Shown here one piece after another: positions 26,484 through 58,131 of a DNA stretch of 58,131 bases. The translations under genes and the position numbers were made by a program. Source of the stretch: Ruminococcus sp. (GTDB lineage: Bacteria > Bacillota > Clostridia > Oscillospirales > Ruminococcaceae); assembly GCA_017534835.1 (NCBI GenBank), contig JAFXVT010000009.1, positions 1-58,131 of the forward strand. Reading direction: 5' to 3'. Positions within the stretch are counted from its first letter, which is position 1, and each line of letters opens with the position of its first letter. The notes under the pieces are model-generated. The model made no database searches. It saw nothing but the letters and a program-made list of their open reading frames with translations, and was not told where the DNA came from.

Positions 26484-28061
26484 TTATTTTGCGTAGTCGG
26501 AAACCCTGCTTTCGCGAATGAGGTTGACCTTGATCTGACCGGGATAATCCATCTCAGTTTCGATCTGCTGGGCGATCTGTCTTGCGACGAGCACCATTTT
26601 CTCGTCGTTGATGACTTCCGGAACGACCATGATCCTGACCTCGCGTCCTGCCTGAACTGCGAAGCACTTATCGACGCCCTCGTAGGAGGTGCATATCTCT
26701 TCAAGCTTCTGGAGACGCTTGATGTAGCTTTCATAGTTCTCGCTTCTTGCGGCAGGTCTTGCAGCGGAAATAGCGTCGGCAGCCTGAACGATGCAGGCGA
26801 TGACTGTTCTCGGCTCAACATCGTTGTGGTGAGCTTCGACAGCGTGTATAACAACGGGATTCTCGTTGTATTTTTTACATACGTCAACGCCTATCTGGAC
26901 GTGTGAGCCTTCGATCTCGGAGGTAAGAGCCTTACCTATGTCGTGGAGAAGACCTGCGCGTCTTGCCATATTAGCGTCAACGCCGAGCTCAGAGGCGAGA
27001 ACGCCGCAGAGCTGTGCGACCTCGATAGAGTGGTCAAGGACGTTCTGTCTGTAGCTTGTACGGAACTTGAGACGTCCGAGGAGCTTGATGAGCTCGTGGT
27101 TGAGACCGTGAACATTGGTCTCGATGACAGCTCGTTCACCCTCCTGCTTGATGCGGTGCTCGACCTCACGGCGAGCCTTGTCGACCATTTCCTCGATGCG
27201 TGTCGGGTGGATACGGCCGTCAGCGATGAGCTTTTCGAGGGCGATCCTTGCGACCTCGCGGCGTATCTGATCAAAACATGAAAGAGTGATCGCTTCGGGG
27301 GTGTCGTCGATGATGAGATCGACGCCTGTGAGAGTTTCGAGGGTCCGGATATTACGTCCTTCCCTGCCGATGATCCTACCCTTCATCTCATCATTGGGGA
27401 GCGGAACAACAGAGACAGCAGCCTCCGAGACCTGATCCGCAGCCACCTTTGCGATAGCGAGGGAGATGTAGCTTCTTGCTTTTTCGTTGCACTCGTCCTT
27501 GAGCTGCTGTTCATAAGCAGCGACCTTGACAGCCTTTTCGTGTACAAGGTCATCCTCGAGGGTCGAGAGGATGTATTCCTTTGCCTGATCCTTAGTGAAT
27601 TCAGAGATCCTCTCAAGAATATCCATCTGAGACTTCTTTATCTGCTCAGCCTCCTTGAGCTTTTCGTCGGCACTCTTTATCTTCTGGTTGAGAGTGTCCT
27701 CCTTCTTCTCAAGGTTGTCGGTCTTCTTATCGAGATTCTCTTCCTTCTGCTGCATACGTCTTTCCTGACGTGACAGTTCAGCTCTGCGATCCTTGATTTC
27801 CTTATCCGCCTCAGAGCGGAGCTTATGTATCTCATCCTTGGCTTCGATGAGGGCGCCTTTCTTCTTGCTGTCAGCGTCCTTCTCGGCGTCCTCGACGATC
27901 CTTGCAGCCTGCTGCTCGGCAGAGCCGACTATCGTCTCGGCATCGCGCTTGCGCTGTTCAACGCCGGCAGCCACACCTTTCTTGTAGGCGATGAGAGCGC
28001 CTACAGCTGCACCTGCGATGAGAGCGACAACGATGAGTATGATTGCGATTACAGGATCCAT
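26484..28061 (-). CDS. rny: ribonuclease Y
   Basis: RNase Y is the membrane-bound endoribonuclease that starts mRNA decay in Firmicutes. The 525-residue product has an N-terminal membrane helix ([20 protein letters not shown]), a long charged coiled coil (about 40-200), a KH RNA-binding domain with [15 protein letters not shown] (about 215), and an HD domain ([13 protein letters not shown] and HDIGKALT, about 345-375). I take ATG 28061 (MDPV), 11 nt after AAGGAGG. Two upstream in-frame ATGs overlap or precede that site. The promoter is about 280 nt upstream, so the mRNA has a long leader. The gene ends in a strong terminator. Confidence 0.97.
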
Positions 28062-28340
28062 ACAGTGCATTACCTCCTTTTTCATAAATTAGTTTGTATC
28101 ATAAAACCGTTACTACTTCAGGCGGTAAATGCCGCATTATTTTATTCATTTGTAAAATATATTGAAAGGGTACCGGATATACCGGGACCGCTCGAAAATA
28201 TTGGACATTCCGTCCGGCATTTTGTTCATATATTCATTAACTTCCGGGGGCAGTATATATTTTTATCTCCGCCGTCAGCATGATTTAAAACAAAGCTGCA
28301 ATTACTGCCAAAAAGTAATATTTCTGCAAATAAATACAAC
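28062..28340 (-). other. long 5' leader of rny with a possible upstream ORF
   Basis: The stretch between the rny promoter and start codon holds no conserved RNA that I recognise. It contains a 27-codon frame (28229-28146, beginning MNKMPDGMSNIFERS) and a hairpin formed by TGCCGGACGG/CCGTCCGGCA-like pairing near 28205-28220. The frame lacks a convincing ribosome site. A 280-nt leader on an RNase Y gene could serve self-limiting mRNA decay, but that is inference. Confidence 0.4.
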
Positions 28341-28346
28341 ATAGTT

Positions 28347-28375
28347 ATTATACACTTTTTTTGAGATTATGTCAA
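28347..28375 (-). promoter_or_regulatory. promoter of rny
   Basis: Minus strand: TTGACA (28370-28375), 17-nt spacer, TATAAT (28347-28352), full consensus. Confidence 0.85.
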
Positions 28376-28477
28376 TAGATTTTCCGTGATTTGTTACTAC
28401 TCTGCGAAAATTAAATCATAAAACTTGTGCGGAAAGCGTATTTTCAGATACGCAGGCGGATTTTTGTGAAAAAACAG

Positions 28478-28506
28478 TTGAATTTTAATAGGGTTTATGT
28501 TATACT
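28478..28506 (+). promoter_or_regulatory. promoter of the membrane protein / dehydrogenase / proBA unit
   Basis: TTGAAT (28478-28483), 17-nt spacer, TATACT (28501-28506). Confidence 0.65.
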
Positions 28507-41770: not shown

Positions 41771-43084
41771 ATGAGAGAATACAGCACACAGATGGAAGCC
41801 GCAAAGAAGGGCATCATCACTCCCGAAATGAAGATAGTTGCCGGCAAGGAGAATATGGACGAACAGAAGCTTCGCGAGCTCGTTGCAAAGGGCGAGGTAG
41901 CTATCCCCTGTAACGTGAACCACAAGTCCATCTCACCCGAGGGCATCGGTACCGGAATGAGGACAAAGATAAACGTGAACCTCGGTATTTCGGGTGATAA
42001 GAACGATTATACACTTGAGATGGAAAAGGTAGATATGGCGATAAAGTACGGTGCTGAGTCGATAATGGACCTCAGCAACTACGGCAAGACCAACACCTTC
42101 CGTACAGCGCTCATCGAGAAGTCTCCTGCTATGATAGGCACTGTGCCGATGTACGATGCTATCGGCTATCTCGACAAGGACCTCCTCGAGATAACTGCAC
42201 AGGACTTCCTCCGCGTTGTAAGAGCTCACGCAGAAGAGGGCGTGGACTTTATGACTATCCACGCAGGTATCAACCGCCGCGCAGTTGAGGCTTTCGTCCG
42301 CGACAAGAGAAAAATGAACATCGTTTCACGCGGAGGCTCGCTCCTTTTTGCGTGGATGATGATGACAGGCAATGAGAACCCATTCTTCGAGCATTACGAT
42401 GAGGTGCTCGACATTCTCCGCGAATACGATGTAACTATCAGCCTCGGTGACGCTCTCCGTCCCGGCTGTATCGACGATGCGACAGACGCTGGTCAGATAG
42501 CAGAGCTCATAGAGCTCGGTGCTCTCACTGAAAGAGCGTGGGCAAAGGACGTTCAGGTAATGGTAGAGGGACCCGGACATATGGCTATGAACGAGATAGC
42601 GGCAAATATGAAGCTTCAGAAGCGTATCTGCCATAATGCTCCGTTCTACGTGCTCGGACCTCTCGTAACGGACATAGCTCCCGGATACGACCATATCACA
42701 TCTGCTATCGGCGGAGCTATCGCTGCGGCGAGCGGTGCGGACTTCCTCTGCTACGTAACACCTGCCGAGCATCTCCGTCTGCCCGATGCTGCTGATGTAA
42801 AGGAGGGCATTATGGCGAGCAAGATAGCTGCACACGCTGCTGACATCGCAAAGGGACTTCCCGGCGCGACCGACATCGACAACAGAATGGCCAAGGCGCG
42901 TCACGAACTCGACTGGGAGGAGATGTTCAAGATCTGCATCGACCCCGAAAAGGCAAGAGCTTACTACGAGAGCACTCCCGTTACCGAGCGCCACACCTGC
43001 TCGATGTGCGGAAAGATGTGCGCTGTACGTACAACGAATATGATACTCAACGGCGAAAAGGTCGAGTTCTGTTCTGAAAAGTAA
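41771..43084 (+). CDS. thiC: phosphomethylpyrimidine synthase ThiC
   Basis: ThiC rearranges aminoimidazole ribotide to HMP phosphate by radical SAM chemistry. The 437-residue protein lacks the long N-terminal extension of proteobacterial forms, as in other clostridia. It shows [63 protein letters not shown] and [12 protein letters not shown]. The C-terminal cluster site is [11 protein letters not shown], with its CxxCxxxxC spacing. It is the last gene of the TPP-riboswitch operon. Its terminator appears to be interrupted by the cassette that follows. Confidence 0.98.
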
Positions 43085-43229
43085 AAAAAGCCCGGAAGCT
43101 ATAAGACGGGTACCCATATAGAAGTTTTGCCCCTGAGCATCTCAAAGTGCTCAGGGGCATTGTGAATATTTATGTTGCTAAGCTAAATCAGAATTTGTTT
43201 ATGCATCGTAAATTTATAAAATATCAAAT

Positions 43230-43892
43230 TTATCTGCCTAACACATCAAAAGCATTCAACAAACTTTCTATGCTCTCTACACCATCAGGTACTGCTTTAC
43301 CAAATCGATTTAGCCATAATGGCTTAATACCGATTGAACTTGCACCTTTAACATCACTACTAATAGAATCGCCTATATGAATCACTTCATCTGCTGACAA
43401 CCCACATTTTTTCAATGCCAGATTAAACAATTCTGCTCTTGGCTTATATGCCCTTGCATCCTCAGAAGTGAAAACACTTGCAGGAGATAATCCATGGTAT
43501 GATAAAGCATTCATAATATCTGATGTATCAATATTGGATACAATAAATATCGGAACAGGGCTTTTCTCAAAGAATTCTTTCGTATCCTCGAAAATAGGTG
43601 GCTTTACCCAATGAGCAAACATAAGATTACTCAGTTCATCTGCGTTTTCTGATGATTGAAACTTTTCTAGTGTATGTACTAATGACTTTCGTTCCAATTC
43701 TCTTTGTGTTTCAAAACTGTCCCCATAGGAATTTGTAAACATTGTTTGAAAATCGTTCCACCAAAATGCCCCTACATCTTCTCTCTTTTCAACCTTTCCT
43801 GTTGCACAAATTATATCAGTTATTTTCTTAATAACCTCACCATCTTCATGTACCAATGTACCATAAAAATCTACAAAAAAAGCCTTTATCAT
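43230..43892 (-). CDS. HAD-superfamily phosphatase, foreign base composition
   Basis: The 220-residue protein is a HAD hydrolase of the phosphoglycolate-phosphatase-like type with an alpha-helical cap. Motif I is FVDFYGTLV (nucleophile Asp8, general acid Tyr position shifted, FYGT in place of FDGT). Motif II is IFIVSNIDTSD (about 115), motif III the lysine in RAYKPRAELF (about 148), and motif IV HIGDSISSDVKGASSIGIKP (about 172). The Asp10-to-Tyr change removes the usual acid/base residue, as happens in some HAD subgroups. Start ATG 43892 has GGAGGG 7 nt upstream. Its A+T-rich codons differ sharply from thiC on one side and the zinc-ribbon gene on the other. The substrate is unknown. Confidence 0.88.
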   Translation of the reverse strand: MIKAFFVDFYGTLVHEDGEVIKKITDIICATGKVEKREDVGAFWWNDFQTMFTNSYGDSFETQRELERKSLVHTLEKFQSSENADELSNLMFAHWVKPPIFEDTKEFFEKSPVPIFIVSNIDTSDIMNALSYHGLSPASVFTSEDARAYKPRAELFNLALKKCGLSADEVIHIGDSISSDVKGASSIGIKPLWLNRFGKAVPDGVESIESLLNAFDVLGR

Positions 43893-44008
43893 TTCAGCCC
43901 TCCATCGACGATAAAATTGGAATTGACCGAGCTCTTTAGAGCGAGGGATGCTTCTTGACCGTCAGGTCAAGAAGATGTGCTCTCCTTTACAAATTCCGAT
44001 TTTTGTCA
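43893..44008 (-). ncRNA. structured leader RNA of the HAD gene, family not recognised
   Basis: The leader of about 115 nt, read on the minus strand, can fold into a closed multibranch shape. An outer pairing GGAATT/AATTCC encloses a perfect 9-bp hairpin TTCTTGACC-tgac-GGTCAAGAA (43953-43974) and a short hairpin GCTC-taaa-GAGC (43931-43942). An internal GAGAGC can alternatively pair with GCTCT. The ribosome site lies 20 nt beyond the outer stem. This looks like a regulatory leader, but I cannot match it to a known riboswitch. Confidence 0.4.
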
Positions 44009-44014
44009 GTAGCA

Positions 44015-44043
44015 ATTATAGCACATCATCTTTGTACTGTCAA
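44015..44043 (-). promoter_or_regulatory. consensus promoter of the HAD gene
   Basis: Minus strand: TTGACA (44038-44043), 17-nt spacer, TATAAT (44015-44020), an exact consensus inside the cassette. Confidence 0.9.
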
Positions 44044-44138
44044 TAGAAACGCCATAGTACTTCTGACCTTACATCAGAAATACTATGGCGTAAAACTTCT
44101 TTATGCGTATCGTACTTAAAGCTTCCGGGCTTTTTGCG

Positions 44139-45065
44139 TTATTTCTTGAAGATGAAGATGTTGAGCATAAGTGCTGCTACAGACGAAAGGCTGAGCAGGA
44201 AGCCTATGACTGCGAGTATCTTGCATATCTTGTTAGACTTCGACGCTCCGCTCATCAGTGCGATGAAGCCGGAAACGAGTCCGACTATCTCGGGAACGAC
44301 GAGAAGTCCGCAGGTCATCATCGCGAGAAGTCCGCATACGAGCGAAAGTATCGGGAAAATGAGCTTTTTGACTGTCAGTCTTGCGTAGTCCTCTATGGGC
44401 TGAGTGTCTATGAGCTTTGCAGCCGCAGCGACCTTGTCGATGACGGGCGCAGACGCGATGTCCGGCGCTGTATCCGGCTGGCCCTTGAGGACCGAGGAGC
44501 CGTAGGTTATCTTGGTCGTGGGGTGGTCTGGATCGAAGTTCTCCTTTGCATTGCCGAAGGACTTGTTGGGCCTTACGTTGAGCTTTTCGACGGTGACTCC
44601 GTTCTGGACTGTCGGCTTGTTATCCGGCTTCTTTACCTCTACGTTCACCGGCATACTTGCAGCCGTTTTCTGAAGATCCTTGAAATAATTCGGGTCATCG
44701 AGTATGGGGTCATAGCAGTGTACGGGGTCGAGCACCTCTGTGTGCTCGCAGTAGGGACAGGTTATCATACCCTTCTTCCTGTCGACCTCCATTGTACCTG
44801 TACAAGCTGGACATACGGTATTTATCGGGTGTTCCTCACGCTTTCTCTGGAGTTCCTTTACAGCGTCGCGGTGCTTTTTGTCGAGACCCTTCTCGACGAA
44901 TTCGCGGCGTGTTCTTTCCTCCTCCTGAGCTATGATGCGCTTGGTCTCCTCCTGTTCACGGGCGATTGCCTTCTCCTTTTCAGCCTGTCTCTGACGGTCG
45001 GCAGCGACCTGATTGACAACATTGTTTGCTGTTCCTAAAAGCGAAGCGATGAGAGCGTCTTTCAT
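44139..45065 (-). CDS. zinc-ribbon membrane protein, unknown function
   Basis: The 308-residue protein starts MKDALIASLLGTANNVVNQV and continues as a charged coiled coil (about 20-75). A zinc ribbon follows, VCPACTGTMEVDRKKG then CPYCEHTEVLDP (CxxC...CxxC, about 85-110). After a Pro/Asp-rich linker come two or three C-terminal membrane helices (about 235-305). I use ATG 45065, 7 nt after AGGAGG; the frame is open to 45284 but without a site. The layout (ribbon plus DUF4190-like membrane end) is common in clostridial proteins of unknown role. It is convergent with thiC and monocistronic. Confidence 0.8.
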   Translation of the reverse strand: MKDALIASLLGTANNVVNQVAADRQRQAEKEKAIAREQEETKRIIAQEEERTRREFVEKGLDKKHRDAVKELQRKREEHPINTVCPACTGTMEVDRKKGMITCPYCEHTEVLDPVHCYDPILDDPNYFKDLQKTAASMPVNVEVKKPDNKPTVQNGVTVEKLNVRPNKSFGNAKENFDPDHPTTKITYGSSVLKGQPDTAPDIASAPVIDKVAAAAKLIDTQPIEDYARLTVKKLIFPILSLVCGLLAMMTCGLLVVPEIVGLVSGFIALMSGASKSNKICKILAVIGFLLSLSSVAALMLNIFIFKK

Positions 45066-45116
45066 ATTTGAGGACCTCCTGTAATTGATGTGCAGCTGAA
45101 AAGCCTGCCTGAATAT

Positions 45117-45145
45117 ATTATAATGCAAATGCCGCGTAAAGTCAA
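45117..45145 (-). promoter_or_regulatory. promoter of the zinc-ribbon gene
   Basis: Minus strand: TTGACT (45140-45145), 17-nt spacer, TATAAT (45117-45122). Confidence 0.8.
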
Positions 45146-45221
45146 GGATTATTGATGGCCGTGAGCTGTTACAAAAATAACAAATGAGTGGGTGGGACTG
45201 CCGGATAGTCAAAAATTGCGG

Positions 45222-45248
45222 AGTCTGCTTCCGGGAGACTCTTTTTTG
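45222..45248 (+). terminator. orphan terminator-like hairpin
   Basis: GAGTCT-gcttccggg-AGACTC followed by TTTTTTG (about 45222-45248). It lies between two divergent genes, so no annotated plus-strand transcript runs into it. I see no promoter for one in 45066-45220. Confidence 0.5.
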
Positions 45249-45287
45249 CTTAATTTCGCCTAAAATGCTTTGTTTAATTGACAATTT

Positions 45288-48328: not shown

Positions 48329-49702
48329 ATGGATCACAGAAGGATAATTGCAGCGGCGGCAGTGCTCGCTATGGCAGCATCGGCGGTTTCGTGCGGAAGT
48401 GATGCCGGCGAAAGCAAGGCCGAGACAACATCGGCAGTTACAGTTGAAGAGGAGACGGAAGAGACCACAAAGACTGAAGAAAAATCGGCGAACGACGAGA
48501 AAAAGTCCGAAAAAACAACTGCAAAGACTGACGCCAAAACATCTGAAAAGACCACCGCTGCTAAGTCGGCGACTACAACAAAAGCTGCCTCCGGCAGCAC
48601 CGGCAGCACATCGGGCGGAAGCGCGTCAGGCGGAAATTCCTCCGGCGGCAGTTCGTCCGGCGGCAGCTCCTCCGGCGGAAATTCGTCCGGCTCGGCTCAG
48701 ACTAATGCGGCTTCCGGCGGCGGACAGACCTCCTCAGAGACTACTCCTGCGGCTGAAGAAGAGGTAAAGGAATATACGGCTGAGATAACTCTCGGAAGCT
48801 CTCCTAAGGTGACCGGAAGCAATGTCACTGTTGACGGCACTGTTGTTACAATAACAGCAGGAGGTGACTATATCTTCACCGGAAGTGTGGATAACGGTCA
48901 GATATGCGTTGATACAGGCGTTTCCGAGGACAAGGTGACAGTTGTTCTGAACGGTGTCACTATCACCAACACGTCAGCGCCTGCGATCTTCATAAGAGAA
49001 GCAAAGCGCTGTACCATAAAGCCGAAGGAGGGCTCAGTGAATACTCTTGAGAGCGGCGTGGAAAAGAAGGGCGTCAAGGATACCGGTGTCATCTTCTCGA
49101 ACGATACAGTCAGACTCAAAGGAAACGGCGAGCTCAACATAAAAGCCACCGCCTCTCACGGCATCAACAGCGACGATGATGTTGTCATAGAGAGCGGTAC
49201 TTACAACATTGATTCACGCAAGTCCGGCATAATCGCGAACGTTGGCGTTACGCTCAACGGAGGCAAGGTCAATATTACCGGCGGAACGAACGGCATCAAG
49301 GCGAAGGGCGATGAAGATGCTGTGGGTACTGTCACTATAAACGGCGGTGCTATGTATGTTTCCGGCGGCACTAAAGAGGAAAAGCACTCGATATACGCAG
49401 CTGAGTTCAACTATGCAGGCGGTACGGTCTTTGCCGCAGGAAACAAGTTCACACAGCCTACAACTTCGGCAGCTCCCTATGCCGGATTCGGCTTCAAGAA
49501 CGGTGGAGCTGCCGGAAGTGAGCTCAGATTCTACGTCAACGGCATCGAAAAAGGCTCGCTCACACCTCATATGGACTTTATGTCAGCGGTGATGTTCCTG
49601 CCTGATCTGTGCGTTGGAGACACGGTGTCTGTCTTTGTCGACGGGAACAGTATGGGCGATTTTGAGATCACAGGCACAAAAAATGAATTCGTTGTAGGAT
49701 AA
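48329..49702 (+). CDS. secreted beta-helix lipoprotein (DUF4353 / Cthe_2159-like carbohydrate-binding)
   Basis: The 457-residue protein has a lipoprotein signal (lipobox SAVSC, Cys about 22). A Thr/Lys/Glu tract leads to a very Ser/Gly-rich spacer (about 90-130) that could cross the wall. A parallel beta-helix domain follows, with repeating NG/GG turns such as VTVVLNGVTITNTSAPAI, NDTVRLKGNGELNI, NSDDDVVIESGTYNI and GVTLNGGKVNITGGTNGIKA. This matches the DUF4353 family, whose Clostridium thermocellum member Cthe_2159 binds cellulose and acidic sugars with calcium. The start ATG 48329 has GAAGGAG upstream. It follows the VTC-DUF4956 pair, a recurring neighbourhood in clostridia. Confidence 0.88.
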   Translation: MDHRRIIAAAAVLAMAASAVSCGSDAGESKAETTSAVTVEEETEETTKTEEKSANDEKKSEKTTAKTDAKTSEKTTAAKSATTTKAASGSTGSTSGGSASGGNSSGGSSSGGSSSGGNSSGSAQTNAASGGGQTSSETTPAAEEEVKEYTAEITLGSSPKVTGSNVTVDGTVVTITAGGDYIFTGSVDNGQICVDTGVSEDKVTVVLNGVTITNTSAPAIFIREAKRCTIKPKEGSVNTLESGVEKKGVKDTGVIFSNDTVRLKGNGELNIKATASHGINSDDDVVIESGTYNIDSRKSGIIANVGVTLNGGKVNITGGTNGIKAKGDEDAVGTVTINGGAMYVSGGTKEEKHSIYAAEFNYAGGTVFAAGNKFTQPTTSAAPYAGFGFKNGGAAGSELRFYVNGIEKGSLTPHMDFMSAVMFLPDLCVGDTVSVFVDGNSMGDFEITGTKNEFVVG

Positions 49703-49717
49703 TTGACGATACATCAG

Positions 49718-49753
49718 CCGCAGAGGAGCAGAAGTTCCTCTGCGGTTTTTTTG
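49718..49753 (+). terminator. terminator after the beta-helix lipoprotein gene
   Basis: CCGCAGAGGA pairs with TCCTCTGCGG, followed by TTTTTTTG. Confidence 0.9.
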
Positions 49754-49979
49754 AGGGTATCGACATTTGATAGACGGCTGAGAGGAATTGTAAATACAAA
49801 ATGTGAATATTGTTTTATCATTTTTGAAACAGAGTCATAACAACTTATGAACAGCCAATTTATATTAATAAACGGTTAACGTGAAGCAACAGCAAACTTA
49901 TTAACGAAAAATTAACAATAAAAACGGCGAAAAACAGGTGAAAAGTACACTATATTTAAGTTATGTGTATATATGTATA

Positions 49980-50008
49980 TTGTCAAGAGCTGTCTTTTGC
50001 AATATAAT
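49980..50008 (+). promoter_or_regulatory. promoter of the candidate 50-kb RNA
   Basis: TTGTCA (49980-49985), 17-nt spacer, TATAAT (50003-50008). From 49754 to 49979 the DNA is A+T-rich, and I see no gene in it. Confidence 0.65.
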
Positions 50009-50014
50009 AAATAC

Positions 50015-50270
50015 AGCATTTGAAGAAAATTGGTATTCAGTATCAAGTACCCTCCCCTCTCATGTGCTTGATACTGGATATTAATTCAACTGCTCGCCAT
50101 AGAAAAAGAATTAGTTTTTTCTTAAAACTAATCCCTTTCATTTGTAATTTTTTCATGTTTTCTATTCTCAATAACTTATTTTAACTATATCTATGGCTCG
50201 GTCCAACAGTGCTAAACGATTTTACAATCGTACGGACCGCATTCGCACCTCGCAAGGGGTGCATTTTTTT
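50015..50270 (+). ncRNA. candidate structured non-coding RNA of about 255 nt
   Basis: The stretch has a promoter, a terminator and no plausible protein. Its 5' part forms a 17-bp stem, 50031-50047 with 50067-50083 (core CAGTATCAAG/CTTGATACTG), presenting a C-rich loop TACCCTCCCCTCTCATGTG. Next are GCCATAG (50095-50103 region) pairing with CTATGGC (50191-50197), which encloses an A/U hairpin ATTAGTTTT/AAAACTAAT; a nested stem CGGTCC/GGACCG with inner ACGAT/ATCGT (50199-50239); and the terminator. A C-rich loop in Firmicutes often binds ribosome sites. I do not recognise the family, and 6S RNA is not convincingly matched. Confidence 0.5.
50245..50270 (+). terminator. terminator of the candidate RNA
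   Basis: GCACCTC-gcaa-GGGGTGC followed by ATTTTTTT. Confidence 0.85.
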
Positions 50271-50307
50271 AGCTTCAAAAACTTGCAAACTTTATTATAT
50301 AATCCGC

Positions 50308-50336
50308 TTGACAAATTATATAAACAATGCTATAAT
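50308..50336 (+). promoter_or_regulatory. promoter of the RHH gene
   Basis: TTGACA (50308-50313), 17-nt spacer, TATAAT (50331-50336), exact consensus, only about 20 nt before the start codon. Confidence 0.9.
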
Positions 50337-50359
50337 TGACTTGAAGGAGGCGAGAAGAG

Positions 50360-51004
50360 TTGAAGAAGAGCGTTTACAGCATCGTTCTGATGGACGATGT
50401 GATAAAAGCGGTCGACGAGCAGGCGTACAGAATGGGGACGAGCCGCTCGAACCTGATAAACCAGATACTTGCACAGCACCTTTCCTGCACTACGCCGGAA
50501 ATGCGTATGCGCGACATCTTCGGCAACCTTGAGGAGCTTATCGGCGAGGCTATGCAGATACAGCAGCAGCGCTCGGCTTCGCTCCTGACGATGAGGTCGG
50601 CGCTGGACTACAAGTATCACCCGACGATATGCTACAAGGTCGAGCTCGAACGTGCTCCGGACGAGTATCTCGGTACGCTGAAGGTGCAGATACGGACGCA
50701 GAGCAGACGGCTTCGCGAGATATTCGACAGCTTCTTCGTGCAGCGTGTCCGGAAGGAGTCAGAGCAGCTCATGCGCGCCGGATACGAATATCCCGAATGG
50801 AAGCTGAGCCCCGGCTGCTTCACGCGCAGGCTCATTAATTCGGGCGAGTACACGGATGACCGCATAGGCGAGGCGATAGCACAGTACATCAATGACCTCA
50901 ATTATGCGATACAGGTCTATTTTTCAGCTCCCGGCGAGCTGATGACAGACGGCGATGAGCTTATGTCGCGCTACACCAGAATGCTGAGCCGTTTCATCGT
51001 GTAG
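50360..51004 (+). CDS. ribbon-helix-helix protein with a helical C-terminal domain, unknown role
   Basis: The 214-residue protein opens with a CopG/Arc-like ribbon-helix-helix pattern, KSVYSIVLMDDVIKAVDEQA followed by YRMGTSRSNLINQILAQHLS. A second domain of about 160 residues has mixed helices (AMQIQQQRSASLLTMRSALD, LREIFDSFFVQRVRKESEQL, AQYINDLNYAIQVYF). The RHH part suggests DNA binding as a dimer; the second part has no family that I know. Translation starts at TTG 50360, 9 nt after a perfect AAGGAGG. It lies between the candidate RNA and clpB and has a very short leader. Confidence 0.75.
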   Translation: MKKSVYSIVLMDDVIKAVDEQAYRMGTSRSNLINQILAQHLSCTTPEMRMRDIFGNLEELIGEAMQIQQQRSASLLTMRSALDYKYHPTICYKVELERAPDEYLGTLKVQIRTQSRRLREIFDSFFVQRVRKESEQLMRAGYEYPEWKLSPGCFTRRLINSGEYTDDRIGEAIAQYINDLNYAIQVYFSAPGELMTDGDELMSRYTRMLSRFIV

Positions 51005-56991: not shown

Positions 56992-57101
56992 TTTCTGACC
57001 TCCGGTCGCTTGTCCGCCAAATGCGGTTCATCCCTATCACTACATTCTGTAAAAAATTGGTTTTGTTCACCTCAACCGTAATAAACGAATGTACTATACT
57101 A

Positions 57102-57130
57102 ATTATAAGATAAATGTTACGATGTGTCAA
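57102..57130 (-). promoter_or_regulatory. promoter of the AraC-type regulator
   Basis: Minus strand: TTGACA (57125-57130), 17-nt spacer, TATAAT (57102-57107). The remaining spacer to the GH30 gene (57131-57333) is A+T-rich. I see no clear promoter or operator for GH30 in it. Confidence 0.75.
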
Positions 57131-57333
57131 TAGTTTTTGTAGATAAAAGCATAAAAAGTCAGTGGTTTTGTCCACCTTTCCTACACATTGTGGGTTTACC
57201 GTATATAAATATTAACGTATAATGAATATAACATAATTAAAATGCAATTAATATGCTATATGATATTATTTGGGGGATATGCGTTAGATTGCAATGTAAT
57301 ATGTCAGGTATGTAAGTTAAGGAGGAATGTCCA

Positions 57334-58131
57334 ATGAGTATCCAGAAGAAACTCAGATCCGTTTTTGCAGGCATGGTCGCCGGAACAATGGTGCTTTCTG
57401 CGGCATCGGTAATGCCTGTGGACTTCGGAGAGCAGGAGCTTGAATCATATGCGGCAGGCGCCTGCACTATCAACACGAACAAGACATATCAGCGTATCCG
57501 CGGCTTCGGAGGAATGAACCACCCCGAGTGGCAGAGCTATAACGCTCAGAACGGAGCTCCCGGAGATATGACAGCAGCACAGGTACAGACTGCATTCGGC
57601 AACGGTGAGAACGAGCTCGGTTTCACTATCCTGCGAATCTTCGTAAGCGACCAGCAGAATGCGTGGAACAACGCTATCCCGACAGCTCAGAGAGCGTCAG
57701 CTCTCGGTGCTACGGTATTTGCGACTCCGTGGAACCCTCCGGCTTCGATGAGAAGCAACGGCTCCGGCGGTCCCCGCGGCGGTCAGTACGTGCTCAATAA
57801 CGGCGCTGAGGCAAACTACGCAAAGCACCTCAACGACTTCATCAAGTTCTGCAACAGCAAGGGCGTTGAGCTGAATTCCATCTCAGTTCAGAACGAGCCT
57901 GACTGGTCAGGCGAGTGGACATACTGGGCACCTTCAAGATGTGCTTCGTTCCTCGCAAATTACGGTCCTGCCGTAACAGCAGGCACGAACACAAAGATGA
58001 TGTCTCCCGAGAGCTTCAGCTACAGCAAGGACTACTACAACGCTATCCTGAACGATTCCAAGGCATTCGCTAACTGTGATATGTTCGGTACTCACTTCTA
58101 CGGCACACAGCGCAGCGCTATGGACTTCCCG
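57334..58131 (+). CDS. GH30 family glucuronoxylanase/xylanase, N-terminal part (cut by window edge)
   Basis: The first 266 codons are present. A signal peptide (MSIQKKLRSVFAGMVAGTMV, cleavage after YAA near residue 41) precedes a GH30 catalytic barrel beginning TYQRIRGFGGMNHPEWQ. The stretches LGFTILRIFVSDQQNAW, TVFATPWNPPASMRSNG and SISVQNEPDW (acid/base Glu about 191) are typical of subfamily 8 enzymes, which cut glucuronoxylan. The nucleophile and any binding module or dockerin lie beyond the edge. Start ATG 57334 follows AAGGAGG by 8 nt. It is divergent from the AraC-type regulator. Confidence 0.92.
   Translation, partial: MSIQKKLRSVFAGMVAGTMVLSAASVMPVDFGEQELESYAAGACTINTNKTYQRIRGFGGMNHPEWQSYNAQNGAPGDMTAAQVQTAFGNGENELGFTILRIFVSDQQNAWNNAIPTAQRASALGATVFATPWNPPASMRSNGSGGPRGGQYVLNNGAEANYAKHLNDFIKFCNSKGVELNSISVQNEPDWSGEWTYWAPSRCASFLANYGPAVTAGTNTKMMSPESFSYSKDYYNAILNDSKAFANCDMFGTHFYGTQRSAMDFP

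Follow-up and report, generated by a model that had tools for sequence, protein, structure and literature searches.

Single-gene cassettes in the loops of bidirectional terminators of Ruminococcus: a probable family of non-autonomous mobile units

Mobile insertion cassettes (MICs), such as MIC231, contain no transposase, have inverted-repeat ends around a passenger gene and are presumed to move in trans; they share their ends with known insertion sequences (IS). RUP, Correia and ERIC are TA-inserting miniature inverted-repeat transposable elements (MITEs), small units with terminal inverted repeat (TIR) ends and TA at both junctions that carry neither enzyme nor gene. Integron gene cassettes, in turn, hold one gene per mobile unit and bring diverse accessory cargo. 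Here we analysed a 58,131-nt stretch of DNA from Ruminococcus sp. (GenBank assembly GCA_017534835.1, contig JAFXVT010000009.1; the whole stretch is referred to as the window in the rest of the paper), which contains at 43102-44118, on the minus strand (that of its cargo), a 1,017-nt cassette, TA at each tip included, delimited by a TIR match at both tips and by ends common to a family. The cassette sits in the loop of a split bidirectional terminator, between a thiC-like gene and a convergent zinc-ribbon gene. Very probably, it belongs to a family of non-autonomous single-gene cassettes that are mobilised in trans and target the loops of bidirectional terminators.

Like MICs, these cassettes lack a transposase, have inverted-repeat ends and a passenger gene, and are presumed to move in trans. 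Unlike MICs, they shared their ends with no IS found in a partial search, and a single chassis with a standard promoter and sharp cargo borders carries 86 clusters of cargo and prefers terminator loops. They resemble RUP, Correia and ERIC in small size, TIR ends, TA junctions and the absence of an enzyme, and differ from them in carrying a gene and in choosing bidirectional terminators; MITEs are short and gene-less, whereas an open reading frame (ORF) of at least 60 aa was found in 118 of 127 elements, and a 111-bp gene-less relative exists. As in integron cassettes, there is one gene per unit and the cargo is diverse; unlike integron cassettes, each unit has its own promoter and two TIR ends, the copies are scattered in the genome, no attC core was found and no array was noticed. 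The hairpin or terminator target is common to IS1272 and TnSha1 of the IS1182 family, which in the available text of the reports encode a transposase, remove part or all of the hairpin and make no target duplication (PMC5678879, PMC4923244), whereas the cassettes keep both arms.

A shared chassis around varying cargo

The original prediction had placed a low-GC insert between the arms of the thiC terminator, described as AAAAAAGCCCGGAAGCT and AGCTTCCGGGCTTTTT, and we recovered both arms, the inward boxes, a hairpin inside each end and the low GC content (0.36 for the insert, compared to 0.56 for 42501-43000 and 0.52 for 44501-45000). The left half of the interrupted terminator, 3' of thiC, spans 43083-43101 and comprises an A-run (43083-43089) and the stem arm GCCCGGAAGCT (43090-43100), which pairs with 44120-44130; the right half (44119-44135) comprises the stem arm AGCTTCCGGGC at 44120-44130 and a T-run at 44131-44135. 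With a single TA retained, the predicted empty site reads GGAAGCT-ATAA-AGCTTCC and has a loop of four bases. The outer arms are target and not element, because they vary between copies while the inner ends stay common. Imperfect inverted ends had also been predicted and are present, but longer than described: they are in fact 27-nt TIRs beginning at the TA. The left TIR, TAAGACGGGTACCCATATAGAAGTTTT with TA first, lies at 43102-43128 on the plus strand (score 42.9; alignment of 34 left ends) and the right TIR at 44092-44118 on the minus strand (score 37.5; alignment of 24 right ends); on the same family-built weight matrix, 0.6 Mb of shuffled sequence reached a maximum of 7.6. The inward box reads GAAGTTTT at 43121-43128 and AAAACTTC at 44092-44099.

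Just inside the TIRs lie a 12-bp left subterminal hairpin (43128-43159) and a right subterminal hairpin (44049-44091), which on the minus strand is terminator-like with the tail TTCTATTGAC. Folded as single strands, the two cassette ends gave z = -4.1 and -4.3, and none of 200 shuffles folded as well; a terminator scan flagged the right hairpin and not the left. The left hairpin is conserved in the family with compensatory changes, and its consensus is followed by ATTGTnTTT. Covariation amounted to 37 cells with a change on both sides, compared to a mean of 14.0 in shuffles, none of 500 of which was as high (relatedness not removed); counted otherwise, 35 of 500 shuffles had at least as many pairs with both-side change (five), and 232 of 500 at least as many pair types. 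In the right hairpin covariation was weak, involving 2 of 11 pairs. Further inward, the cargo is bracketed by a left inner repeat, GTTGCTAAGCTAAATCAGAATTTG, on its 3' side (43174-43197, plus strand), 32 nt from the stop codon in the window copy, and by a right inner repeat on its 5' side (43990-44013), which reads GCTACTGACAAAAATCGGAATTTG on the minus strand. The putative cargo promoter (44015-44043, minus strand) consists of TTGACA (44043-44038), a 17-nt spacer and TATAAT (44020-44015), a 12/12 match to a strong promoter of the sigma-70 type that reads into the cargo gene; shuffling of the promoter region yielded a mean of 3.2 promoter-like sites scoring at least 9/12. The cargo itself (43230-43892, minus strand) codes for a 220-aa HAD-family hydrolase (Pfam PF00702, E = 3.5e-16), in line with the phosphatase foreseen from the sequence. 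An additional hairpin, CTTCTTGACC / GGTCAAGAAG, occurs at 43951-43974 in the leader between the promoter and the HAD gene.

The same order (TA, 27-nt repeat, hairpin, inner repeat, gene, inner repeat, promoter, hairpin, 27-nt repeat, TA) defines the chassis of the family. From 235 loci we obtained 147 left/right end pairs, corresponding to 127 distinct combinations of element and site, with lengths of 197-2,669 nt and a median of 768 nt (n = 127; the longest may be mispaired). The promoter was found in 116 of the 123 elements of at least 300 nt, with a spacing of 17 in 114 of them, compared to 5 in shuffled sequence. The consensus of the inner inverted repeat is AAATCAGAATTT on the left and AAATCGGAATTT on the right. 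Allowing up to three mismatches, 101 of the 118 elements of at least 380 nt had it on the left, 89 on the right and 81 on both sides (shuffled sequence: 1 left, 8 right); allowing up to four, a count made without a shuffle control, both sides had it in 103 of 118. Conservation falls off at the inner edge of this repeat, the right copy is often followed by a G-rich stretch resembling a ribosome-binding site, and the cargo stop codon lies -13 to +15 nt from the left copy in 69 of 95 elements. The cargo borders at the inner repeats are thus sharp, and what is exchanged therefore seems to comprise one ORF together with a ribosome-binding site. Left and right inner repeats of the same element are identical at 15.76 of 24 positions, compared to 15.46 under shuffled pairing (30 of 5,000 permutations as high); because this barely exceeds shuffled pairing, we do not claim that the two repeats base-pair.

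The end sequences, which the original prediction proposed to seek elsewhere, recur both in the source genome and across the genus. In the source genome, a search with the whole insert recovered two more full copies with paired ends and other cargo. One, on contig C56, adjoins a serine acetyltransferase-like gene (named by eye), carries a glyoxalase-like cargo and has the terminator arms AACCGAGCC and GGCTCGGTT; the other, on C67, adjoins a groEL-like gene (also named by eye) and carries a 147-aa gene without known identity, with no clear arms. A lone left end with no detected right end also stands beside a 700-aa ORF in this genome (G000:C18:71313-71379). Similarity to the left end was found in 15 of 40 genomes including the source, all of them among the 24 of the same genus and none among the other 16. 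Under strict filters, a right-end covariance model had matches in 101 of the 125 genomes searched within the genus, up to 21 in a single genome, while a left-end model matched 10 of 100 genomes sampled across the bacterial family, representing 9 of 99 genera including the source genus; three of these 10 matched only at E = 2e-5 to 9e-4 (weakest 9e-4). A pattern scan of public genomes returned at least 118 stretches, and R. flavefaciens, R. albus and many metagenome-assembled genomes (MAGs) are among the 80 listed. Since the matches include isolates (for example R. flavefaciens MC2020, ND2009 and ATCC 19208), the family is not a binning artefact. A search in Rfam gave two matches to an unrelated microRNA model, far under its gathering score.

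Related ends also occur on two plasmids of R. albus 7, over 75% and 52% of the query. These plasmids with family ends, pRUMAL02 (L254) and pRUMAL01 (L255), of which one is conjugative and the other mobilizable, offer a possible route between species. No viral contig was matched with the two patterns used; a partial right end was seen in an unverified phage scaffold from human faeces (L256:5821-5885, MT837163.1).

Mobility and the choice of terminator loops

The insert had been predicted to be a non-autonomous mobile unit. Its ends recur, its cargo varies, relatives have empty terminators at loci other than this one, and comparison of near-identical cassettes with unrelated flanks and of cassette-free terminators shows that the cassettes move. 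Of 46 pairs of similar, near-full-length elements (72-99% identity), 43 had unrelated flanks, and 31 of the 33 pairs with at least 90% identity stood at different sites (pairs within one cluster are not independent). One pair crossed genera in the classification used here (L066 in genome G174 and L044 in G008, 94.5% identity over 874 nt). Conversely, a single terminator was found with two different cassettes, L059 and L138, whose flank similarities were 1.00 and 0.97.

Twelve comparisons were made in the search for empty sites in relatives. For L025, genome G062 (L202) has the terminator whole and homology on both sides, with a junction longer by 2 nt and a different sequence farther to the right. 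For L060, G116 (L194) is continuous, with homology on both sides and a difference of 1-2 nt. For L044, G048 (L204) and the more diverged G108 (L222) retain the terminator and the right flank, again with 2 additional nt. These junctions fit a 2-bp (TA) duplication at insertion, without proving it. In L202, a sequence some 300 nt to the right of the empty site for L025, GGGGCAAAACTTCTAT, resembles by eye a remnant of a cassette end.

As to the target, the prediction that the unit inserts into terminator stem-loops was borne out statistically across the family: the cassettes sit at a TA within bidirectional intrinsic terminator loops, in many cases with convergent genes on either side. The flanks of the same element reached a pairing score of at least 9 in 62 of 127 cases, compared to 4.6% of 16,000 mismatched pairs, and of at least 12 in 25 of 127 compared to 0.25%; an earlier, smaller set had given 41 of 67 compared to 5.0% and 14 of 67 compared to 0.23%, respectively. 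Arm pairing was found at 51 of the 78 elements with TA tips and at 108 of 3,837 other intergenic TAs of the same loci. The insertion site is flanked by A-runs (about -13 to -20) and T-runs (about +13 to +21). When we considered only TAs with both an A-run and a T-run (at least 5 of 8), a stem score of at least 7 was reached in 38 of 63 elements and in 14 of 316 background sites, so that A- and T-runs alone do not account for site choice. The predicted empty sites had a mean fold of -18.8 kcal/mol, compared to -9.7 kcal/mol for mismatched flanks, and 66 of 127 elements stood between two ORFs that both pointed at the element (ORFs of at least 90 aa, called mechanically). Orientation relative to the T-run showed no bias among 41 elements (14 versus 12, with 15 ties).

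At the window locus itself, the flanking ORFs are a thiC-like gene (41771-43084, plus strand) and the convergent zinc-ribbon gene (44139-45284, minus strand), both named in the original prediction without a family search. In 20 relatives, tblastn (E <= 1e-3) found no HAD gene within about 2 kb downstream of thiC. The intact form of the window's own terminator was not found in relatives, in which the insert is missing and the sequence differs too; G021 (L399) has a bidirectional terminator of different sequence between thiC and a zinc-ribbon homologue. In G062 and G009, 111-bp gene-less elements sit inside the terminator after thiC, which means that post-thiC terminators have been hit more than once in the genus. 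These elements have TIRs of the same kind around one central hairpin (L408:1921-2031 and L409:1897-2007), and a 138-bp relative was seen in L111. Elsewhere in the window, further dips in GC (0.35-0.40) occur at 28001-28500, 49501-50500 and 57001-57500, none with a family TIR.

Several observations weigh against a mobile family of terminator-loop cassettes. The element set leaves out unpaired ends, 30 of the 177 on the left and 66 of the 213 on the right, and orthologous copies of a single insertion were counted twice (L011/L051 and probably L033/L345). TA stands at both aligned tips in only 78 of 127 elements. The arm score is below 7 in 48 of 127, and these may represent decay, other targets or misplaced ends. 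In 65 of 78 predicted empty sites the TA fell in a hairpin loop, but it did so in 194 of 307 mismatched controls too, and taken alone this count carries little weight. Among the empty sites, L204 and L222 are homologous only from the terminator rightwards, the left gene of L044 being missing, and the remaining 8 of the 12 comparisons were filled, one-sided or unclear. A stricter search yielded only two loci, L194 and L205, and in L205 the junction sequence is unrelated. In the empty sites of these diverged relatives, the extra bases at the junction are TT, CA and TG and not TA; they are therefore also compatible with cassette tips that brought their own TA and replaced 2 nt. Finally, no copy with a transposase was seen with the end models, the TIR pattern or the TIR weight matrix; of the 36 sites that the left-end TIR pattern matched in 10 genomes, the 30 that were read all had a left or right family end; and none of the six transposase or recombinase families tested tracks the cassettes. 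With regard to the unpaired right ends, 49 of 66 among the 235 loci are no more than 1,300 nt from where their stretch ends, and several matches of the public scan stand at contig ends. The data suggest that repeated cassette ends break MAG assemblies and hide cassettes.

The mobilising enzyme and rival explanations

The families tested were PF05598, PF13358, PF07508, PF01797, PF13936 and PF01609. Because several genomes are incomplete, the absence of an enzyme is weak evidence. DUF772 (PF05598) was found in 4 of 10 element-bearing genomes and was absent from 6. DDE_3 (PF13358) was found in 4 of 24 genomes (one under the cut-off), DDE_Tnp_1 (PF01609) in 8 of 24 and Y1 (PF01797) in 11 of 24 (10 over the cut-off). 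PF13936 matched 17 of 24 at E <= 0.001, 8 of them over the cut-off; it is a short helix-turn-helix model that also matches all 14 control genomes, and it was missing or weak in most element-bearing genomes. None of 46 enzyme loci that we fetched, 5 of them serine recombinase loci, had a family TIR (best score 9.5). When left ends with no detected right end were inspected by eye, in a list that includes duplicates of paired copies, several again had a single gene beside the left end and others had unrelated genes. In three of these, L037, L046 and L054, fragments resembling tyrosine integrases by eye lie 0.9-2.9 kb inside the left end. The enzyme may act from conjugative elements, belong to another family or be missing from the assemblies.

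A TIR-binding DDE-type transposase is our first choice, to which we give about an even chance, in view of the 27-nt length of the ends, the TA at the junctions and the existence of a miniature form without a gene. Set beside IS630/Tc1-mariner elements, which are of the DDE type and use TA, the cassettes have TA at both tips in the 78 elements mentioned and about 2 extra nt in empty sites, reading TT, CA or TG; unlike what such elements would lead one to expect, DDE_3 occurs in just 1 of 14 element-bearing genomes. The second choice, possible if rather doubtful, is a serine recombinase, which is the main rival because of the target described for Cp36 and the palindromic circle junction. In its explicit form, a multi-targeting large serine recombinase with a TA core would move the cassettes in trans, the circle junction (right end-TA-left end, RE-TA-LE) acting as a palindromic attP and the A-run/T-run terminators as relaxed attB; we regard this version as unlikely. 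A 2-bp core is typical of large serine recombinases, PF07508 is present in 23 of the 24 genomes tested, and the Cp36 target motif of an A-rich region, an AA core and a T-rich region (PMC10083194, in its available text) is like the cassette targets with the A-runs and T-runs described above. However, Cp36-type elements encode their recombinase, and the available text of that report does not mention target stem pairing (PMC10083194). Stem pairing at the cassette targets is enriched beyond the A- and T-runs, whereas a sequence motif alone would not require pairing. The distribution of PF07508 also speaks against it: G229 has 19 matches to the left-end model, 13 at E < 1e-6, and no match to PF07508; a single PF07508 match stands beside 13 right-end matches in G061 and beside 14 in G129; and PF07508 matches number 4 to 31 in ten genomes where the right end had no match. 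The family TIR is missing from all 5 serine recombinase loci.

The remaining explanations fare worse. That an IS1182/IS1272-type transposase moves the cassettes would agree with the insertion of IS1272 and TnSha1 into hairpins, several of them confirmed terminators according to the available text (PMC5678879, PMC4923244), but the removal of part or all of the hairpin without target duplication described there contrasts with the two retained arms and the difference of about 2 nt at empty sites seen here; with DUF772 absent from 6 of 10 and DDE_Tnp_1 from 9 of 14 element-bearing genomes, we consider this very improbable. We attach equally little credence to single-strand transposition of the IS200/IS605 type (HUH, Y1) into exposed loops, which the original prediction had offered as a parallel, or to a REPIN-like system. 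Subterminal hairpins beside a fixed GAAGTTTT box at both ends and insertion into a loop would suit either, but the TIRs are long and symmetric, there is no orientation bias, and Y1 is absent from 8 of 14 element-bearing genomes, including the source genome. Folded DNA is nonetheless a possible form in which the target is recognised. Integron-type gene cassettes lying outside an integron would explain one gene per unit, accessory-looking cargo (GNAT, VOC, hydrolases) and hairpin ends; this too is most unlikely, as TIRs bound both ends, each unit has its own promoter and no cassette array was noticed. The RYYYAAC/GTTRRRY core pair was found across the circle junction in 0 of 127 elements, a strict, non-discriminating test in that shuffles also gave 0. 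Lastly, a native HAD gene lying by chance between terminator-like repeats, with no mobility at all, is hardly credible, given that the ends recur with other cargo, similar elements occupy different sites, empty sites exist at other loci and no HAD gene follows thiC in 20 relatives.

For a cassette mobilised in trans, the preferred reading, we propose the following course. A recombinase or transposase supplied in trans would bind the 27-nt repeats and excise the cassette at the TA. The terminator loop, a target choice evident from the statistics above, would be recognised through its dyad structure, perhaps as a cruciform. Insertion at TA in the palindromic target would probably duplicate the 2-bp TA, as the junctions support without proof. 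The site lies between genes, so insertion should do little harm; the effect on neighbours would be small, and the cassette hairpins may take over termination, the right one being terminator-like in the inward direction. To judge from the sequence, the cargo would be expressed from the chassis promoter, and the sharp cargo borders suggest that it could be renewed by gene exchange between the inner repeats. More tentatively, and with slightly less than even confidence, we propose a gene-shuttling system of its own kind, built on a fixed chassis with nested pairs of inverted repeats, in which the outer repeats would serve insertion into terminator loops and the inner repeats the uptake of a ribosome-binding site and one ORF. 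Such a dispersed, integrase-free counterpart of the integron would use an enzyme outside the tested transposase families and would spread accessory genes through the Oscillospiraceae of the rumen and gut while doing host transcription units little harm.

Cargo and significance of the cassettes

The cargo differs between copies. The longest ORF runs from the right end towards the left end in 111 elements and in the opposite direction in 7. Among the 86 cargo representatives, 15 match the GNAT family (PF00583); other matches include HAD, PNPOx, S66 carboxypeptidase, dCTP deaminase-like, PfkB, HIT, VanZ, chorismate mutase, nitroreductase and methyltransferase. No transposase was among the 25 most frequent of the 66 Pfam families matched by the 86 representatives, nor was one seen by eye. 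This set is similar in flavour to the cargo of integrons. One representative (alignment A4) matched an aminoglycoside acetyltransferase model (E = 1.8e-58) and resembles the AAC(6') type, the cargo of L144 (L144:2667-3332) matched a Vat streptogramin acetyltransferase model (E = 2.8e-74, under the curated cut-off), and two representatives matched PADLOC models. The cargo ORFs of L030, L070, L326, L354, L370 and L378 seem to have a common N-terminus, MAFLLT..., which arises because the ORF runs upstream through the chassis promoter (ATG GCG TTT CTA TTG ACA); the automatic start calls in these ORFs are likely wrong.

Taken together, the cassettes fail defining features of the IS1182 family, IS200/IS605, integron cassettes and MITEs; they act like a mobile insertion cassette and have the hairpin target in common with IS1272. 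No earlier description of such cassettes was found in the literature searched, outside which lay most subscription papers and all preprints, with searches not all aimed at this question. They offer a concrete test of whether terminator hairpins are recognised by structure or by sequence and pose the question of the mobilising enzyme, which, if found, could provide an integration tool that writes into terminators. They may also account for single genes of low GC content that lie between convergent genes in Ruminococcus; a few of these single genes are similar to antibiotic-resistance acetyltransferases. The cassettes look like a little-known route by which bacteria pass single genes around: a genus-wide pool of single accessory genes, ready for expression, that would move into sites where insertion should cost little.

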